Virus record (IMG/VR): IMGVR_UViG_3300044701_000748
Span: 1 to 24,443 of that record
Length of the DNA stretch: 24,443 bases
Strand: one strand, 5' to 3'
Source of the DNA: a virus
Shown here piece by piece: positions 13,102 through 24,205 of this stretch. The notes beneath the pieces are model-generated. The model saw only the letters and a program-made list of their open reading frames with translations. It was not told the origin of the DNA and did not search any database. Each line of letters starts with the position of its first letter. Position 1 is the stretch's first letter. The position numbers and the translations under genes are program-made.

Positions 13102-15444
13102 TCAGAGGGTGTCGTTGCCGCGGCTGAAGGATTCAGGATGACGGACAGCGATGTCCACGTCCTGCATGGCCACCACGCGCACAGTCCCGGAGGTGCTGTG
13201 GGTGTAGGGGTCAACCATCAGATCCAGACCGGAGAAGTAGCCGATGATCAGGTCGGCGAAGTTGCCGAACCACAGATCGCCGGATGCCACCTGGTTGGAC
13301 AGCACACCGCGGTAGCCGTTCACCAGATCGCCTTCCATGACGAACAGACCGGAGCCTGCGTCCTTGGCCTTGGTCTTCAGACCACCGCGCATGGCGGCGT
13401 TCATCAGATAGACAGGAGTGCCGAGCAGGGCATTGCTGCCAGCCACGTCGCTCTCCAGTGCCACAACCTCAGCGAAGGTCGGGGTAGCAGCGGCGAAGTC
13501 CTCGGTGCCGATGCCGGTGGTGTTCTTAAGACCCAGGGGCTCGTTGCTAGCACCAGTGCCATACAGGCCGGCGTAGTCGATCTTCAGAGCGATCACGCGA
13601 GCCAGATCGCTGCGCACCATGTTCTCCACGTCGATGGAGGACTGAAGCATCAGCTTGCGGCTGTAGTCGGTGAAGGCAGCACAGGTGCGGGGCACCAGGC
13701 TCACTTGGTCGACGGTCTGCTGGGACTCGGTGGGGGAGCCGGACTCAGCCACCCAGTAGGCGGTAGCAGCGCCGGACTGGCGGGGGATAGCCACGTTGCC
13801 GGTCAGGCCGGTCAGCACGGTGGCGCCAGCTTGATCGAGAGCCGAAGCGTTGCGCAGCAGGTCGATGAAGGAACCAGCGTCCAGCTCGGTAGCGACCAGG
13901 TTGCCACCAGCGGAAGCGGTGCCGACGTTGAGGTCACGGCGCAGCACGTCCTGGGGAACAGTGATACCGCGGGACTGACGGCCGAGCTTTGCAGCAGCAG
14001 CATCAGATGCCTCGATCTCGAACGCAGCAGCCTCGCGGGCGTTGCGATCGGCCGGGTTAGCCAGATAGTTGATGGCACGCAGGAAGGAGAAGCTGCGGCT
14101 CTCCTTCTCGCTAAGGCCGATTTCAGCGGCGCTCATGGTGACGGGCTCCTGGGGAATGTCGAGCTTTTCAAGAACAGCGGCACGAGCCTCGTCGATAGAA
14201 CGACCAGACTCCACCAGCTGGCGGCCGAGATCGGCCATGCCGTGCTTATCGCACAGCGCAGAAATGCCAGCGATGCGGGAGCGCTCAGCCTCAGCGGCTT
14301 CGGCCCGCACCACGGCCAGATCGGGGGTGGTGTTTTCCATTGAAGGAATGGGATCAGGTGTTGGTGCTGCCGAAGCAGCTTCTTCGGTGGGCTCCAGCGA
14401 TCGGCCGATGCCCACCGTCTTGTCCGCCGGTATTGAGACCACGGAGATCTCATACGGCGACCAAGCAGTAGCAACAAAGTCGCCACTGCCGCGTTCCTCC
14501 ATCTTGTCAATGGAGTAACCGAAGGAGACATTTCGAAGAACGCCATCCTTCACATCACTCAAGACTTCTTGAGCGAATGGGTTGCGGCTGAACCGCACAC
14601 GCGCATAACCGCGGCGCTTTTTGCCGTCGATATATGCACGCTCCACAACACCGATCACACGGTCAGGGTTGTGGTTGAACAACAGCGGAGCGCCATCGTT
14701 CAGGCGACTAAGATCAGCCGCCTTGATCTCATGGCTCAAAATCTCGTTGCCGAAGTAACGAGCGACCGGATATTCAGAACTGAACGGGAACTCATAGGTC
14801 CGCTCTTCGATTTCATCAAACGCAGTCATCTCGCTGCGCTTGTATTTGCCCTCCATCGCCCGCAACGCTGCAATCTTCGTCAACGTCGAGAACCGATGCG
14901 CTACACGCACTGGCGTGTCCTCCCATCCCTGCTCTCCCTCGCGGAACACTGTGATCAGTGCCGCAGGATCGTCAGGCGTGCCATTGATCACCACCTCAGC
15001 ATTCGGCACATCAATCTGACCATCGCGCTCGATGCGGTCAATCTGGCCGCGTGCAGTGCCGCCGCTTGAATCCCATTGCACAAAATCACCGACCTTTAAG
15101 CCGTCAGGCTTTGCGCGATCAGCCTCGCCATCGCCAGTAGCTTCCTCAAACTCGATCGGATCAAAGTCGTGCTCAGCCAGCCACGCACGCGCTTCCGCCG
15201 GCGTGTACTGCGAACTACGGAACCGGATCGCTTGAATCTCGCTCTCGCCTTCCTTGATCCCATAGATGAAATCAATCCCAGCGCCACCTTCATCATTGAC
15301 GCGTTGCAGCGAATCAAACTGGTCGGGATCTTTCAACCGAGCAGCGTGCTCATTCGGATAGGGGCGCTCTAAGTCCACAGCGCTTCTGTCTTGTATTGCC
15401 TTGATTCTATCGGCCTTTGATGTAGCGCCTTCAATCGTCGCCAT
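13102..15444 (-). CDS. Prohead protease-scaffold-major capsid polyprotein with Tudor-like domain (780 aa)
   Basis: One uninterrupted frame holds several head modules. Residues about 45-103 (IRFRSSQYTPAEARAWLAEH) form a small module common at the front of phage proteases. Residues about 115-168 (GLKVGDFVQWDSSGGTARGQ ... NGTPDDPAALITVF) resemble the HVA1/Tudor-like domain. About 204-350 is an S78 (HK97 gp4-type) protease with APLLFNHNPDRVIG (His258), LRNVSFGYS (Ser307) and SPYEISVVSIPAD (Glu332). About 370-430 is a helical scaffold-like part (VRAEAAEAERSR). About 490-780 is an HK97-fold capsid, with PRQSGAATAYWVAESG and YGTGASNEPLGL. The protease would be expected to cut near 480-510 during maturation. 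The ATG at 15444 is chosen because AGGAGGTGA sits 6 nt upstream; the TTG at 15447 is too close. It overlaps the portal end by 14 bp. Confidence 0.93.
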   Translation of the reverse strand: MATIEGATSKADRIKAIQDRSAVDLERPYPNEHAARLKDPDQFDSLQRVNDEGGAGIDFIYGIKEGESEIQAIRFRSSQYTPAEARAWLAEHDFDPIEFEEATGDGEADRAKPDGLKVGDFVQWDSSGGTARGQIDRIERDGQIDVPNAEVVINGTPDDPAALITVFREGEQGWEDTPVRVAHRFSTLTKIAALRAMEGKYKRSEMTAFDEIEERTYEFPFSSEYPVARYFGNEILSHEIKAADLSRLNDGAPLLFNHNPDRVIGVVERAYIDGKKRRGYARVRFSRNPFAQEVLSDVKDGVLRNVSFGYSIDKMEERGSGDFVATAWSPYEISVVSIPADKTVGIGRSLEPTEEAASAAPTPDPIPSMENTTPDLAVVRAEAAEAERSRIAGISALCDKHGMADLGRQLVESGRSIDEARAAVLEKLDIPQEPVTMSAAEIGLSEKESRSFSFLRAINYLANPADRNAREAAAFEIEASDAAAAKLGRQSRGITVPQDVLRRDLNVGTASAGGNLVATELDAGSFIDLLRNASALDQAGATVLTGLTGNVAIPRQSGAATAYWVAESGSPTESQQTVDQVSLVPRTCAAFTDYSRKLMLQSSIDVENMVRSDLARVIALKIDYAGLYGTGASNEPLGLKNTTGIGTEDFAAATPTFAEVVALESDVAGSNALLGTPVYLMNAAMRGGLKTKAKDAGSGLFVMEGDLVNGYRGVLSNQVASGDLWFGNFADLIIGYFSGLDLMVDPYTHSTSGTVRVVAMQDVDIAVRHPESFSRGNDTL

Positions 15445-16996
15445 CAATCACCTCCTCCTCCTCGACCTCTTCTACCTCGCCCATGGGTGCTTCCGTATCG
15501 CCGAACGGATCCACCACGCCCGTTGGCTTGTGCTGGCTAGCGCCGCCATCGGTCACCTCACTCGGGTCGGTGTCGGTGACGATGTTCAGCTCATCCAACA
15601 GCGCCAGCTCTCTCTGACGCGCCACCAGCACATCGTCCAGATCACTGCCCTGTTCAGCGATCACCTGGCCCAACGTCTTAAATCCGCAGCGCACAGCAGT
15701 CTTGTACGCCTCGACCTCCTTCATCGGATCCACCCATTCCCAGCTACGGGCGACCCACCTGCTAGCGCGATAGCGCTCAGGATTGGTTTCATAGCCCGGC
15801 AGGTTGATCTCACCGCTCAGCACCGCCATGTCCAGCCATGCGTTGAATACCGGCTGCAGGAAGTTCTCGATCATGTACCGCTGCAGCACCCGGTAGGTAT
15901 CGCGCTCCTCCAACAAGCTCAACCTGCTGCTGCTGTAGTTGGTCTCTGAAAAGTTCTTGCTGATGCTCTCAAAGCTCACGCCTAAGCCAGCAGCCACGGC
16001 ACGCAGCATCGACCGGGTGAAGGGCTCCAACTGGCCATCGGGTGCATTCAAATCAGGCACCGTCACCTGTTGACCGGGGTCCAAATACTTAAAGACACCA
16101 GGCTGGAAATCACTCACCCGCTCGCCTTCGTAGACCTCATCAGGCGTCAGCTCACCCTCAGGGCTGGTGATGAATCCCATCAGCGCACTGCTAGCCCGTG
16201 CACGCACCACCTCGGCCTCCTCATAGCCCTGCAGCATGTGCAGCCGCATCAATGTCGAGGCGAACCACGTCACGCCCCTGGTCTGGCCCGGACGGTCAGA
16301 AATAAACAGGTGCAGCACCTCACTAGCAGGCACCCGGATCCGGCGCCCATTGGTCCGGGCATTGCCCGCATAGGTATCGCCCGGATGGTTCGCATAGAAG
16401 TGGTAAGCCTGCGGGCGTAGGTACTGATCTACCTCGATGCCCATCCGCACCGTGTTGCCGGCCGCGGCCTGCGGCACATCGTCATCAATCAGATAATCCG
16501 CCTCCAGCACCTGCAACGCAAAGGGCACTTTTGAATCGCCAAATGGCCGGCGAATCATCCGCACAAAGACCTCGCCGCTTTCCGCCAAGCTGCGGACCAG
16601 CAGCGATTGCATGTCATAAAAACCGAGCAGCCCGCTGACATCACAGCGGTTCTTGTTCATCCATTGCTCGAACGCCTCGTGGATCTGCGCGTTCATCACC
16701 TCATCCAACCGCCCGCCACGCAGCATCCGCACCTGCCCTTGGTGCCGAATACCGTGGCCGATCACGTTGTTCTGGATCGCCCGCAGTGCCTGCCGCGCAT
16801 AGTCGTTGTCGCGGCACAGCTGCCGCGCACGGTTGCGCAACGACTTAAAGCTCGACTTGATCTCACTATCAGCGCTGGTGCCACTGGTCACCCAGTCGCT
16901 GGTCAGCCTGCTCACCCGCGCACCCAGGTATGCCCTTTGCCGCGGCCGTACCGGCTCGAATCCCATCGCCTTGAACAGCCGGGTGCGGAGTCCCAT
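15431..16996 (-). CDS. Portal protein, lambda gpB family
   Basis: This 521-residue protein is near the length of lambda gpB (533). It forms the dodecameric DNA gate at one capsid vertex. Family landmarks are the N-terminal RARQLCRDNDYARQALRAIQ then NNVIGHGIRHQG (about 50-85), LLVRSLAESGEVFVRMI, VLEADYLIDDD, the stem/clip region with VLHLFISDRPGQTRGVTWFA, and the C-terminal FSETNYSSSRLSLLEERDTY. It ends in a strongly acidic tail (VEEVEEEEVIDGDD) whose codons include the capsid ribosome site. The ATG at 16996 overlaps the gpW-like stop by 1 nt (TAATG). The order W-B-protease/capsid is as in lambda. Confidence 0.96.
   Translation of the reverse strand: MGLRTRLFKAMGFEPVRPRQRAYLGARVSRLTSDWVTSGTSADSEIKSSFKSLRNRARQLCRDNDYARQALRAIQNNVIGHGIRHQGQVRMLRGGRLDEVMNAQIHEAFEQWMNKNRCDVSGLLGFYDMQSLLVRSLAESGEVFVRMIRRPFGDSKVPFALQVLEADYLIDDDVPQAAAGNTVRMGIEVDQYLRPQAYHFYANHPGDTYAGNARTNGRRIRVPASEVLHLFISDRPGQTRGVTWFASTLMRLHMLQGYEEAEVVRARASSALMGFITSPEGELTPDEVYEGERVSDFQPGVFKYLDPGQQVTVPDLNAPDGQLEPFTRSMLRAVAAGLGVSFESISKNFSETNYSSSRLSLLEERDTYRVLQRYMIENFLQPVFNAWLDMAVLSGEINLPGYETNPERYRASRWVARSWEWVDPMKEVEAYKTAVRCGFKTLGQVIAEQGSDLDDVLVARQRELALLDELNIVTDTDPSEVTDGGASQHKPTGVVDPFGDTEAPMGEVEEVEEEEVIDGDD
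15448..15456 (-). promoter_or_regulatory. Perfect Shine-Dalgarno site for capsid polyprotein
   Basis: The minus strand reads AGGAGGTGA, a nine-base complement of the 16S anti-SD tail, ending 3 nt before a TTG and with 6 nt between GGAGG and the ATG at 15444. It sits inside the GAG/GAG/GTG codons of the acidic portal tail (EEEEV), so coding sequence and ribosome site are shared. It is the strongest ribosome site I found in the window, fitting the need for hundreds of capsid copies per virion. Confidence 0.85.
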
Positions 16997-20839: not shown

Positions 20840-20927
20840 GGGTCAAGGGTAGGCGGCGGAGCCTTGTAACGCCGCGCAGGCCCGGGCCCGGCGAGCTGGT
20901 GAGGGGCGAAAAGCCGTGAGACTGGGT

Positions 20928-20953
20928 GTTCCTATGTTCCGATCGTTCCGACC
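20928..20953. repeat. Three GTTCC-type repeats, left arm of origin-like region
   Basis: The units GTTCCTAT, GTTCCGATC and GTTCCGACC follow one another with period 8-9. GTTCC is the reverse complement of the GGAAC core of the tandem array at 21028-21051, so the two arrays face each other across the A+T-rich core. Confidence 0.8.
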
Positions 20954-21027
20954 CTCCTTAGAGACTTTCCCTACAGCCCCCTATACCCCCCCCTATACCC
21001 CTATATAAATACATATACATATTAAGT

Positions 21028-21051
21028 AGGAACATAGGAACATAGGAACAT
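21028..21051. repeat. Three exact tandem 8-bp repeats AGGAACAT
   Basis: AGGAACAT occurs at 21028-21035, 21036-21043 and 21044-21051 without mismatch. Tandem 8-mers do not help encode any gene here, and they invert the GTTCC repeats at 20928-20953. The period of 8 bp is short for helical phasing but fits tightly packed binding sites. Confidence 0.9.
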
Positions 21052-21111
21052 CGCTTGGCACAGAACGGGTTTGATGTTCCGACCTGTTTTGCCGGAGTGG
21101 GAACAAACGCC

Positions 21112-21148
21112 AGTCTCAAGTTGAGACTCATGAGACGCAACTGTCTCA
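21112..21148. repeat. Double palindrome of GTCTCA/TGAGAC half-sites at primase 3' end
   Basis: AGTCTCAA (21112-21119), one base, then TTGAGACT (21121-21128) form a perfect inverted repeat. A second pair, TGAGAC (21131-21136) and GTCTCA (21143-21148), follows with a 6-bp gap, its last half-site overlapping the primase stop codon. The same hexamer forms the palindrome at 20010-20027 upstream of terS and a half-site at 20917-20922. A shared DNA-binding protein or transcription terminator function is possible; no T-tract follows. Confidence 0.75.
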
Positions 21149-23263
21149 AAAGTAGACCCATTTGAGAACGCCATCGACTCTCTGCCGTCGTCGCTGGTAT
21201 CCCAAGTCCCGCAAAATGCTCCCCACCTGCATCTGATCAGCCCGGGTCTGCCGCTCCACCGGCTTGAGGATTGCTTCAGCCAGCAGCACGTCGGTAGTGA
21301 TGTCCTTGGACTTATTGACCGGGGCAATGAGCCAAGACTCAATAGGTGCACGCCATGGCGACTCCACCAGGTAGTCCTGGTTCTGCTCAGCGACCATTGC
21401 TTCCTGGTCAGAGGTGAGGACGCTGGGCTCGCCATTGCGATAGGCCGCTACCGCTGCCGACCAGATCGCATCCCGCTCGATGTACAGGGCAGGTACATCG
21501 ATGGGCTTTTGAAGAGTGCAGGTGACGGGGATGACCCAGAAGCGGCGGTTCCCCGTTTCATCGACCAAGAAGCCGCTGTCGCGGTTGGTAGAACCGACAA
21601 TGATGCAGCGCCTGGGGAAGGCTTCGGTGGCCTTGCCGTATGGCACCCGGAACATGTCGGTGGATTGGCTGAGGAATGCCTTGACCTGACCGGCGTGCTT
21701 CTTGCTGGTGACGTGATCAAGCTCTGCCCATTCCATGAGCCAGGAGCGATGGAGAACCATCAGATCGTCCTTGCTGCTGATGTCGCGCAGGGCATCAGAG
21801 AAGAAGTCCCCACCAAGGGCTGCCCAGAAGGAAGATTTGCGGGCACCCTGCTCACCCATCAGAACAGTGGCGTTGTCGTGCTTACTGCCGGGTTCATAGA
21901 TCCGTCTGACGGCTGCGATGAGAGTGCAGCGGATCATGTGATCAAAAAGGGTCGGCTCTGAATGCTGCGCATCACCGGGTCTGAGGTAGGTGGATGCGAT
22001 GCGGTCGATGTAGGTGGGTTGAATGTGGTTGGCGACATGATCGAGGTAGTTGCGGATCGGATCGTATGGGTTGGCCTTGGCGATCTTGACGAGGCAATCA
22101 AGCGCGATTTCTTTGGAGATCTTGCCGCCAGCTTCTGCGATCTCTAGGTAGTAATGCTCAGCGTTCTCCAGAACGGCGTAATCGCTTTTTGATGCCTTGC
22201 GCTCGATCTGCTGAGTGAAGATGTTGTAGCGGAGGTTATTGGCTGCGCGGAGTTGAGCCAGTAGCTCATTGGACTCGATTTTGCGCAGTGGTGAAGGATC
22301 TGCTGTGACTGGTGTGGTGGTTGGCGGTGGTGATGGTGAAACCACCTGCGGGATGTGGCGCGGTGGTTTGTAGCCGTGCTGTTGAGCGAAATACCAGAAC
22401 GTGCCGGCGTTGACTGAATGGCAGTTGCTGCTGGCTACCTGCTCTACTTGGGCGAAGAGCGGGCTATGGCGTTTCATGAGGGCTATGGCGTCATCAGCTG
22501 ATGCACCGGCTTCGCGGCAGGCATCAATGAGACCCCACATGAGGTTGCGAAAGAACGGGTATTGCTTTGTTTTCGGTATGGCTGCAGGTATGCAGTTGAG
22601 GGCGTCTTGGATTTCAGAGAGTGTTCTGGGCGTGTAGTCGGTGAACTGCCGAGCCTGAACGATGGTGTTGTGAGTGGGCTCGTCGGGCAGACAACTGTCG
22701 AGCTGCTCGAAGGTGTAGTAGGTGTCTGATTGGTGAATAATTGCGACCTGATCACCTAGTGCGCCATCAGCACCGACGTGATAGGTGCCTGGCAGGCGCA
22801 TGACGCGCGACGGGTTTTTAAGGGTGCGATCGGCGTCCGCGTGTTCAAGAAGACGGCGCTGAAGTGACCGCCATTGATCGATGGTGATGGGATCAGCGAA
22901 TACCCAGTAGGTATGGATCGACTTGCCGCCGGTGTCGACCTGCATGGTGGGCTCTGGCAGGCCGAGATCTTGCCAGGCTGTGACCTGCCAGTCTTTGGGG
23001 CGATCGTCCCATTCGCAGAAGATGGCATGGCAAAGGGTGATCTCCGAATCTGTATCGCCGCCAGTGTTAATGACGAGGTAGACGCCACGGCCTTCGGCTT
23101 GCCAACCTTCGACGATTTGACGAGTGGGAGCAGATTTGCGACCAGGGTCGCCGGATTTGAAGGGATGACCGGAGGGGAAGAAGGCGCGCAGGCGTGAGGC
23201 TTTGGGTGGTTTGCGAAGAATGGAGATGAACTGACGAGCGGCCTCGAAATCGATGGGCTTCAT
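21146..23263 (-). CDS. Primase-polymerase / VapE-type helicase
   Basis: This is a 705-residue replication protein with three parts. The N-terminal PrimPol (RepB-like AEP) has an acidic motif FCEWDD (82-87), the S-x-H motif GGKSIHTYWVF (112-122) and RVMRLPGTYH (about 153-162). A primase C-terminal-like helical domain (about 215-300) includes DALNCIPAAIP and RNLMWGLIDACREAG, and ends NAGTFWYFAQQHGY. The C-terminal VirE/VapE-type SF3-like ATPase has Walker A GEQGARKS (about 470-477), acidic WLMEWAELD, and GSTNRDSGFLVDETGNRRFW (about 555-574). Such proteins make primers and unwind the origin of phages and satellites. The ATG overlaps the stop of the RHH gene by 4 nt (ATGA), so the two are co-expressed. 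The origin-like repeats begin at its 3' end. Confidence 0.92.
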   Translation of the reverse strand: MKPIDFEAARQFISILRKPPKASRLRAFFPSGHPFKSGDPGRKSAPTRQIVEGWQAEGRGVYLVINTGGDTDSEITLCHAIFCEWDDRPKDWQVTAWQDLGLPEPTMQVDTGGKSIHTYWVFADPITIDQWRSLQRRLLEHADADRTLKNPSRVMRLPGTYHVGADGALGDQVAIIHQSDTYYTFEQLDSCLPDEPTHNTIVQARQFTDYTPRTLSEIQDALNCIPAAIPKTKQYPFFRNLMWGLIDACREAGASADDAIALMKRHSPLFAQVEQVASSNCHSVNAGTFWYFAQQHGYKPPRHIPQVVSPSPPPTTTPVTADPSPLRKIESNELLAQLRAANNLRYNIFTQQIERKASKSDYAVLENAEHYYLEIAEAGGKISKEIALDCLVKIAKANPYDPIRNYLDHVANHIQPTYIDRIASTYLRPGDAQHSEPTLFDHMIRCTLIAAVRRIYEPGSKHDNATVLMGEQGARKSSFWAALGGDFFSDALRDISSKDDLMVLHRSWLMEWAELDHVTSKKHAGQVKAFLSQSTDMFRVPYGKATEAFPRRCIIVGSTNRDSGFLVDETGNRRFWVIPVTCTLQKPIDVPALYIERDAIWSAAVAAYRNGEPSVLTSDQEAMVAEQNQDYLVESPWRAPIESWLIAPVNKSKDITTDVLLAEAILKPVERQTRADQMQVGSILRDLGYQRRRQRVDGVLKWVYF

Positions 23264-23455: not shown

Positions 23456-23473
23456 GGCCGAATTAACGGATTG

Positions 23474-24205
23474 ATGCCAGCGCGCCGAATCAAGCCTTGC
23501 CCGCCATTGGGCGGAAGGCAATGGAGCAATTACAAAGACTACGAAAATCATATGAATAAAATCCGAAAGGAATTGCCTGAGGGATGTCCGCTTGAGGGCG
23601 AAGACTATCTGTATGCCCAGGAGTATTTGTCTTGGCATGTCGCTTGGCCGGAGTTCACCGAAGAACACGGACCCGCTGAGGCGATTTTTGTTGAGCACAA
23701 TCCCGATGTTCCGCCTTATCGCGACCGAACTGATCAAAACCAGTTCTGGGTCCACTTTGCTGATGGGGACTCAGAAGTCTTCTCTTACAAGATCTGCCAC
23801 AGTAACTTTGGGCATGACTTGAGTCATCCTGATCTGGTCTTTGATCAGCATCTGCGAAGAGTTAAATCTGCAGCCCGTCACATTATCCGACCGCTACACG
23901 AAGAACTAAAGCATCGCTCTGGAATGGTGGGCGCGCTAGATGTTCATCATGAAGGCGAACCGTTTCAGTCGTTGCTGTTTCGTTTTATCAAAGACGAATT
24001 AAAGCTTAAAACCTTGCACGATCTTGTTGTGATTGGTGTCGATGATATTGGCAGCAAGCGATTCCACCCGCAATCTGTTAGCCAAGACTGGTATCGATTC
24101 CATGAGCAGCAGGCCAATCTGGTCGTGATGACCAAAGAAGCCCATAAGCAATGGCACGTTGCGAACGGAAAGGATCCAGAACCTAACTGGTCGGAGTTTC
24201 GATGA
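23474..24205 (+). CDS. DCL/DUF3223-like protein with HNH-type nuclease C-terminus
   Basis: This is the only plus-strand gene in the window, 243 residues from ATG 23474 (TTG 23471 is adjacent). Residues about 25-115 fit the DCL/DUF3223 plan: a helix with IRKELPEGCPLEGEDYLYA, a SWHVAWPEFTEEHG segment, and the final strand FWVHFADGDSEVFSYKICHSN split by family landmarks F-SY-x-x-C. The C-terminal part has LDVHHEGEPFQSLLFRFI (about 155-172) and WYRFHEQQANLVVMTKEAH, which match the HNH-like half I recall in phage DUF3223 proteins. The gene is more A+T-rich than its neighbours and opposes them, and overlaps the VRR-NUC gene tail by 23 bp, so it looks like a later insertion (moron or homing nuclease). 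Confidence 0.6.
   Translation: MPARRIKPCPPLGGRQWSNYKDYENHMNKIRKELPEGCPLEGEDYLYAQEYLSWHVAWPEFTEEHGPAEAIFVEHNPDVPPYRDRTDQNQFWVHFADGDSEVFSYKICHSNFGHDLSHPDLVFDQHLRRVKSAARHIIRPLHEELKHRSGMVGALDVHHEGEPFQSLLFRFIKDELKLKTLHDLVVIGVDDIGSKRFHPQSVSQDWYRFHEQQANLVVMTKEAHKQWHVANGKDPEPNWSEFR

Follow-up and report, generated by a model that had tools for sequence, protein, structure and literature searches.

The window, by which we mean the whole stretch of DNA analyzed, is a linear IMG/VR virus fragment of 24,443 bases with its main genes on the minus strand. The gene order is VRR-NUC, vapE, a gap, a minor tail protein (phrog_1924), the small and large terminase subunits, the portal, a protease-capsid protein, and tail genes. 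The head protease and the major capsid protein are apparently fused in a single frame of 781 aa (13102-15447). On the opposite strand to vapE, a frame of 244 aa (23471-24205, plus strand), 63-85% conserved in relatives, had no match in PHROG, Pfam, or phage records, and its C-terminal part looked HNH-like by eye.

The vapE gene (21146-23263, minus strand; Pfam PF05272, 8e-65) encodes a primase-helicase of 705 aa, the proposed initiator. Its product comprises an S-2L-type AEP primase (residues about 7-151), a VapE helicase (420-631), and a winged helix (about 640-705). The codons of this last domain, the proposed array-binding domain (residues 640-705), occupy 21149-21346 on the minus strand, and AlphaFold2 predicted it with a pLDDT above 90. 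Against the PDB, the VapE family profile matched SaPI PriRep1 (7pds, 1e-35) and S-2L PrimPol (6zp9, 4.5e-16), and a fold search with the full model, of modest overall confidence (pLDDT 68), also returned 7pds (2e-10) and 6zp9. When the C-terminal domain was searched in isolation with Foldseek, no match fell below E = 0.001 and plant methyltransferases came first by E-value, while the highest TM-score among the matches listed belonged to a part of PriRep1 (TMq 0.54, with a weak E-value). P4 alpha was not among the sequence or fold matches of VapE. Comparison of three related loci (L044, L048, and L087) with the window showed two primase modules, PF09250 plus PriCT_2 or the S-2L-type AEP, on the same helicase and winged helix.

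A repeat array directly 3' of vapE

Eight GGAAC/GTTCC cores lie in the 306 bp of the gap (20840-21145), with GTTCC at 20928, 20936, 20945, and 21076 and GGAAC at 21029, 21037, 21045, and 21100. The initial annotation had described them, directly 3' of the primase-helicase gene, as three tandem 8-mers, three opposite copies, and two single copies, together with C-tract/TATA units, an A+T-rich core, and a 9-bp inverted pair at the borders, and all of these elements were found again where it had placed them.

The whole array, from border to border (20917-21118), was annotated as a putative replication origin: its repeats were confirmed, and its position 3' of vapE and its layout are kept in relatives. 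It opens with the left border arm TGAGACTGG (20917-20925, plus strand), a far-side arm kept in close relatives, whose partner CCAGTCTCA forms the right border arm (21110-21118, plus strand). The far repeat block follows (20927-20949, minus strand), with three GGAAC words (cores 20928-20932, 20936-20940, and 20945-20949). Between it and a minus-strand G-tract, in which the G-runs are split by TATA (20976-21001), sits a conserved box recognized by eye (20954-20972, minus strand), which reads GGGAAAGTCTCTAAGGAGG in the window and GGAAACTCTCTATAGG or similar in relatives. This box, seemingly constant when the word changes, is perhaps a priming site or a second binding site, and the G-tract strand is a possible G-quadruplex. 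The C-tract/TATA units (20976-21005) lead into the A+T-rich core (about 21002-21025), a likely unwinding element, for which the median was 16 A/T out of 20 in 137 relatives. The near repeat block (21027-21051, plus strand) holds TAGGAACA three times with a period of 8, as an exact 3 × 8 bp tandem (21027-21050) that is also exact in nine other contigs. Adjoining vapE, an inverted word pair (21074-21105; GTTCC at 21076-21080 and GGAAC at 21100-21104) is likewise present in relatives. No Rfam match was obtained anywhere in the window.

Dinucleotide-preserving shuffles of the 306 bp (n = 5,000) ruled out a chance origin of the array. A mean of 0.8 GGAAC/GTTCC cores was expected against the eight observed, a count reached in none of the 5,000 shuffles; the 3 × 8 bp tandem was equally found in 0 of 5,000, and a 7-mer with five copies had a probability of 0.0002. 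As the whole window contains 37 such 5-mers, the signal lies in their clustering and not in the 5-mer itself.

Arrays beside vapE in related viruses

The initial annotation had proposed to look for the repeats beside close homologues of the primase, and there they were present. When IMG/VR was scanned for exact copies of the 24-mer, nine other contigs were found, in all of which (9/9) it lies directly 3' of a vapE homologue (67-88% identity). In most of 80 loci gathered by VapE similarity, an array was found in the same place and with the same layout, made of other words, which differ by lineage: TAGGAACA, TGGGAACA, GTTGGAACA, GGTTGGACA, GGTTGGACG, GTTGGCAA, GGTTAGCA, GGTAGGAAA, and GGTAGGGCA. 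Most of these loci are fragments of uncultured viruses. Synechococcus phage S-LBS1, with 63% identity over the helicase half, has an array of the words GGTTGGGCA/GGTTAGGCA. We infer picocyanobacterial hosts from S-LBS1 and the phages related to it and from a contig of Cyanobium (L349, 57%). The last 405 bases of the S-LBS1 record (MG271909.1, our L011) close with an exact second copy of 127 bp of the array, probably an assembly overlap, and the published contig ends inside the repeat array.

The gene on the far side of the array varies between contigs, so the array goes with vapE and not with its other neighbor. When the layout was scored in 137 relatives, with the words on the vapE side running one way and those on the far side the other way, both sides were as expected in 84 and at least one side in 132. 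Three G-runs on one strand were present on the far side of the core in 75 of the 137 loci, compared with three C-runs in 5. Some relatives have only about three recognizable copies of the word. In long contigs, the array frequently ranked with the densest repeat windows, though not in every case, and by this measure it was weak in five of them (G006, G013, G015, G017, and G019).

Co-variation of the repeat word with the VapE wing

On the G-rich strand, the word can be written as GTNRG plus a tail, the core pattern having been chosen from the first 55 loci. Among the first 55 distinct C-termini, the tail tracked the residues just before the conserved C-terminal Trp (L700-K701-W702 in the window). 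The rule was fixed in writing on these 55 proteins, before the retrieval of another 90, in which it largely held. Among the latter, Leu was associated with AA in 18 of 21 cases (two were mixed and one was TA), R-Q-W with GCA in 9 of 9, and Gln with CA in 7 of 8, with one tie. Proteins with R-R-W had ACG or, with one more G, GAC, and here the rule was only half right.

Over 139 distinct proteins, Leu700 corresponded to the tail AA in 41 of 42, Gln700 to CA in 24 of 25, and Arg700 to AC, GC, GA, or GT in 69 of 69. The exceptions to the code were L129 (Leu, TA), L055 (Gln, mixed), and L133 and L140 (both mixed). Residue 700, which is encoded at 21164-21166 (minus strand) and predicted to lie in the second wing strand of the winged helix (pLDDT above 90), was the top column by normalized mutual information (0.74; the next reached 0.56). 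It also ranked first when pairs were compared, differing in 66% of 62 different-tail pairs versus 5% of equally diverged same-tail pairs. Because Arg is compatible with several tails, residue 700 alone is not the whole code, and variation with the word is also seen at the neighboring wing positions 694-703. Relatives with the PF09250 plus PriCT_2 module, such as L048, have similar words, so the word is not tied to the primase. That the word changes in step with one residue near the end of VapE in about 140 related phages suggests that the enzyme reads this word.

A quick tree was built from the helicase core without the winged helix, on which about 24 tail changes and 18 changes at residue 700 were counted. 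Scored over independent pairs, with supported branches only, the residue followed the tail about 5:0, 6:0, and 7:0, in tests that overlap and involve small numbers of pairs. On these sequence comparisons, phylogeny does not explain away the co-variation of tail and residue. The clearest example is a pair of loci, L105 and L099, with helicase cores that are about 97% identical. Over the last 300 bp of vapE, their DNA identity is 78, 62, and 49%, it is about 43% in the array, and homology is back about 285 bp past the stop codon. Binding domain and array look as if they had been exchanged here as one cassette. It is reasonably probable that a large phage family, mostly of picocyanobacteria, swaps its origin specificity in this way, as a cassette of ~600 bp made of the last vapE codons (the winged helix) and the adjoining array, and that the 3' half of the word is read by wing residue 700 according to a code (Leu for AA, Gln for CA, and Arg for the others). 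Speculatively, the frequent switching could help these phages to evade nucleases directed at the origin, satellites, or related phages that superinfect.

The putative origin, its alternatives, and its wider reach

Computation established that the array exists, that it stays 3' of vapE, and that its word co-varies with the VapE wing, and binding of the array by VapE is supported by this co-variation with the winged helix and by the winged-helix model. The gap at 20917-21118 is very probably the replication origin of the phage, with the VapE encoded beside it as the initiator, SaPI-like in logic. The arrays found 3' of VapE relatives and the co-variation thus lend support, at the level of sequence, to the origin proposed in the initial annotation. 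The C-terminal winged helix of VapE would bind short words, here TAGGAACA, that converge on the A+T-rich core; on each of the two blocks, VapE rings would form, melt the core, and move outward as they unwind the DNA, with the fused primase priming the exposed strands. Ring loading, melting, priming, and bidirectional forks are suggested by homology to the self-loading SaPI Rep helicases. The open-access literature searched yielded no account of a replication origin in phages with VapE.

GC skew, which the initial annotation had recommended as a check, supports an origin in most of 14 contigs. The skew step at the array ranked high among positions (median rank 0.065, KS p = 6e-5), but it was missing in three of them (G016, G018, and G020), and the cumulative minimum fell at the array in only some of the 14. 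In view of the three contigs without a step, GC skew was not accepted as sole proof of an origin.

Packaging was considered as another function, in which the small terminase would bind the repeats and the large subunit would cut there (cos or pac). This would suit a terminase of the lambda gpA type, as encoded here, with a single gene separating the array from terS and terL and with terS about 0.9 kb away; in lambda-type phages, the cos sites lie upstream of terS. Yet the terminase of L044 is close to that of the window (TerS N-terminus 89% and TerL 85% identical) and its word is GTTGGCAA. In L029 and L030, conversely, the word is that of the window and the terminase belongs to another cluster. 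Site specificity, therefore, did not follow the small terminase as expected of a lambda-type cos or pac site. Moreover, the array of L006 and L009 remains beside vapE with terS almost 4 kb away, and the packaging terminus of S-LBS1 was predicted at 25,643, while its array is near 34.3-34.6 kb (PMC6157547). We rejected a packaging site on the basis of this double dissociation of terminase and word and of the published S-LBS1 terminus, and a packaging role of the array is very unlikely.

An operator or promoter, with VapE or another phage protein binding the repeats to control late genes, would agree with the position of the array, which precedes the structural genes and shares their direction, and with a core that has a TATA-like sequence and would serve as the promoter. 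However, the word tracks VapE, a homologue of helicase-initiators, and the far-side gene varies between contigs, and converging blocks around an A+T-rich core, together with the skew step, fit an origin better than an operator. We regard this explanation as improbable, but the array may have a second, regulatory role beside that of an origin. The least probable alternative, which we give very little credence, is a stem-loop origin of the kind proposed for pRN1 and phage BIP-1, to which the repeats would be incidental. The gene layout is the same (AEP primase, helicase, winged helix, and an element 3' of the gene) and the inverted blocks could pair (PMC4234260), but each block is made of words repeated directly in tandem, needless for a stem-loop, and the words co-vary with the winged helix across many lineages.

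The origin interpretation finds its nearest parallel in the SaPI Rep helicases, in which the C-terminal domain recognizes origin iterons located directly downstream of the helicase's own gene (PMC7581432). Like SaPI Rep/PriRep1, and SCCmec Cch2, VapE would be an initiator helicase with a C-terminal DNA-binding domain and short iterons directly 3' of its gene, here also around an A+T-rich stretch, and PriRep1 (7pds) is both its sequence homologue and a fold match. In view of the homology, the position, the layout, and the co-variation, an origin function is likely here. In contrast to SaPI, the array belongs to the phage's own genome, an S-2L-type AEP primase is fused to the helicase, and the words, of 8 bp and another sequence, co-vary with a wing residue across many lineages.

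The initial annotation had drawn its parallel with P4. This stands as an analogy, since P4 alpha is described (PMC4234260) as a primase-helicase whose C-terminal winged helix binds repeats, and a winged helix and an array are present here. It is not the nearest one, the VapE homologues of known structure being SaPI PriRep1 and S-2L PrimPol: the P4 primase is of the Toprim type (DnaG-like), whereas the N-terminus of VapE matches the S-2L AEP domain (6zp9), and the word differs. The pRN1 protein ORF904 also unites an AEP primase, a helicase, and a winged helix, with its origin 3' of the gene (PMC4234260), but this origin is a 100-nt stem-loop without iterons, unlike the iteron-like arrays of direct tandem words found here. 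In the PLE satellites of Vibrio cholerae, the origin and the DNA-binding domain of the RepA initiator co-vary and are exchanged as a module, an exchange associated with evasion of a nuclease that targets the origin (PMC8263062); unlike VapE, the RepA_N domain is N-terminal, the iterons are of about 30 bp, and few variants are known.

The cyanophage S-2L encodes a homologous primase-helicase, identified as the sole possible polymerase of this phage (PMC8065100). In the 360 nt that follow the S2L_32 PrimPol gene (L012), eight GGCAC/GTGCC copies were counted, the maximum of the 42 kb examined (mean 1.3), although the word GGCAC lies outside the GTNRG family. Both orientations are represented among the copies, and a C-tract and an A-rich stretch lie next to them. 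No report of an S-2L replication origin was found in the literature searched, and these 360 nt are a candidate for it. Among VapE relatives encoded in bacterial genomes, mostly of Rhodobacteraceae, a 7-mer occurred at least six times in the 350 nt 3' of vapE in 20 of 73, compared with 10 of 618 control stretches. GTGGGAC and GGTGACA are among the words of these arrays, and where the arrays are densest, the wing of the protein mostly reads R-E-W. Many of the alphaproteobacterial vapE loci in our set (L349-L428) carry repeat arrays with these two words 3' of vapE.

Most uncultured phages have no known replication origin. If our interpretation is true, the origin of a large and widespread phage group could be read directly 3' of vapE, its repeat word would be largely predictable from the end of VapE, and a place is proposed for the origin of S-2L. 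These phages would then also offer a collection of naturally occurring initiators with their origins, including some in which the helicases barely differ but the words do, to follow how the specificity of a winged helix changes, and they would raise the question of what drives the switching of words.
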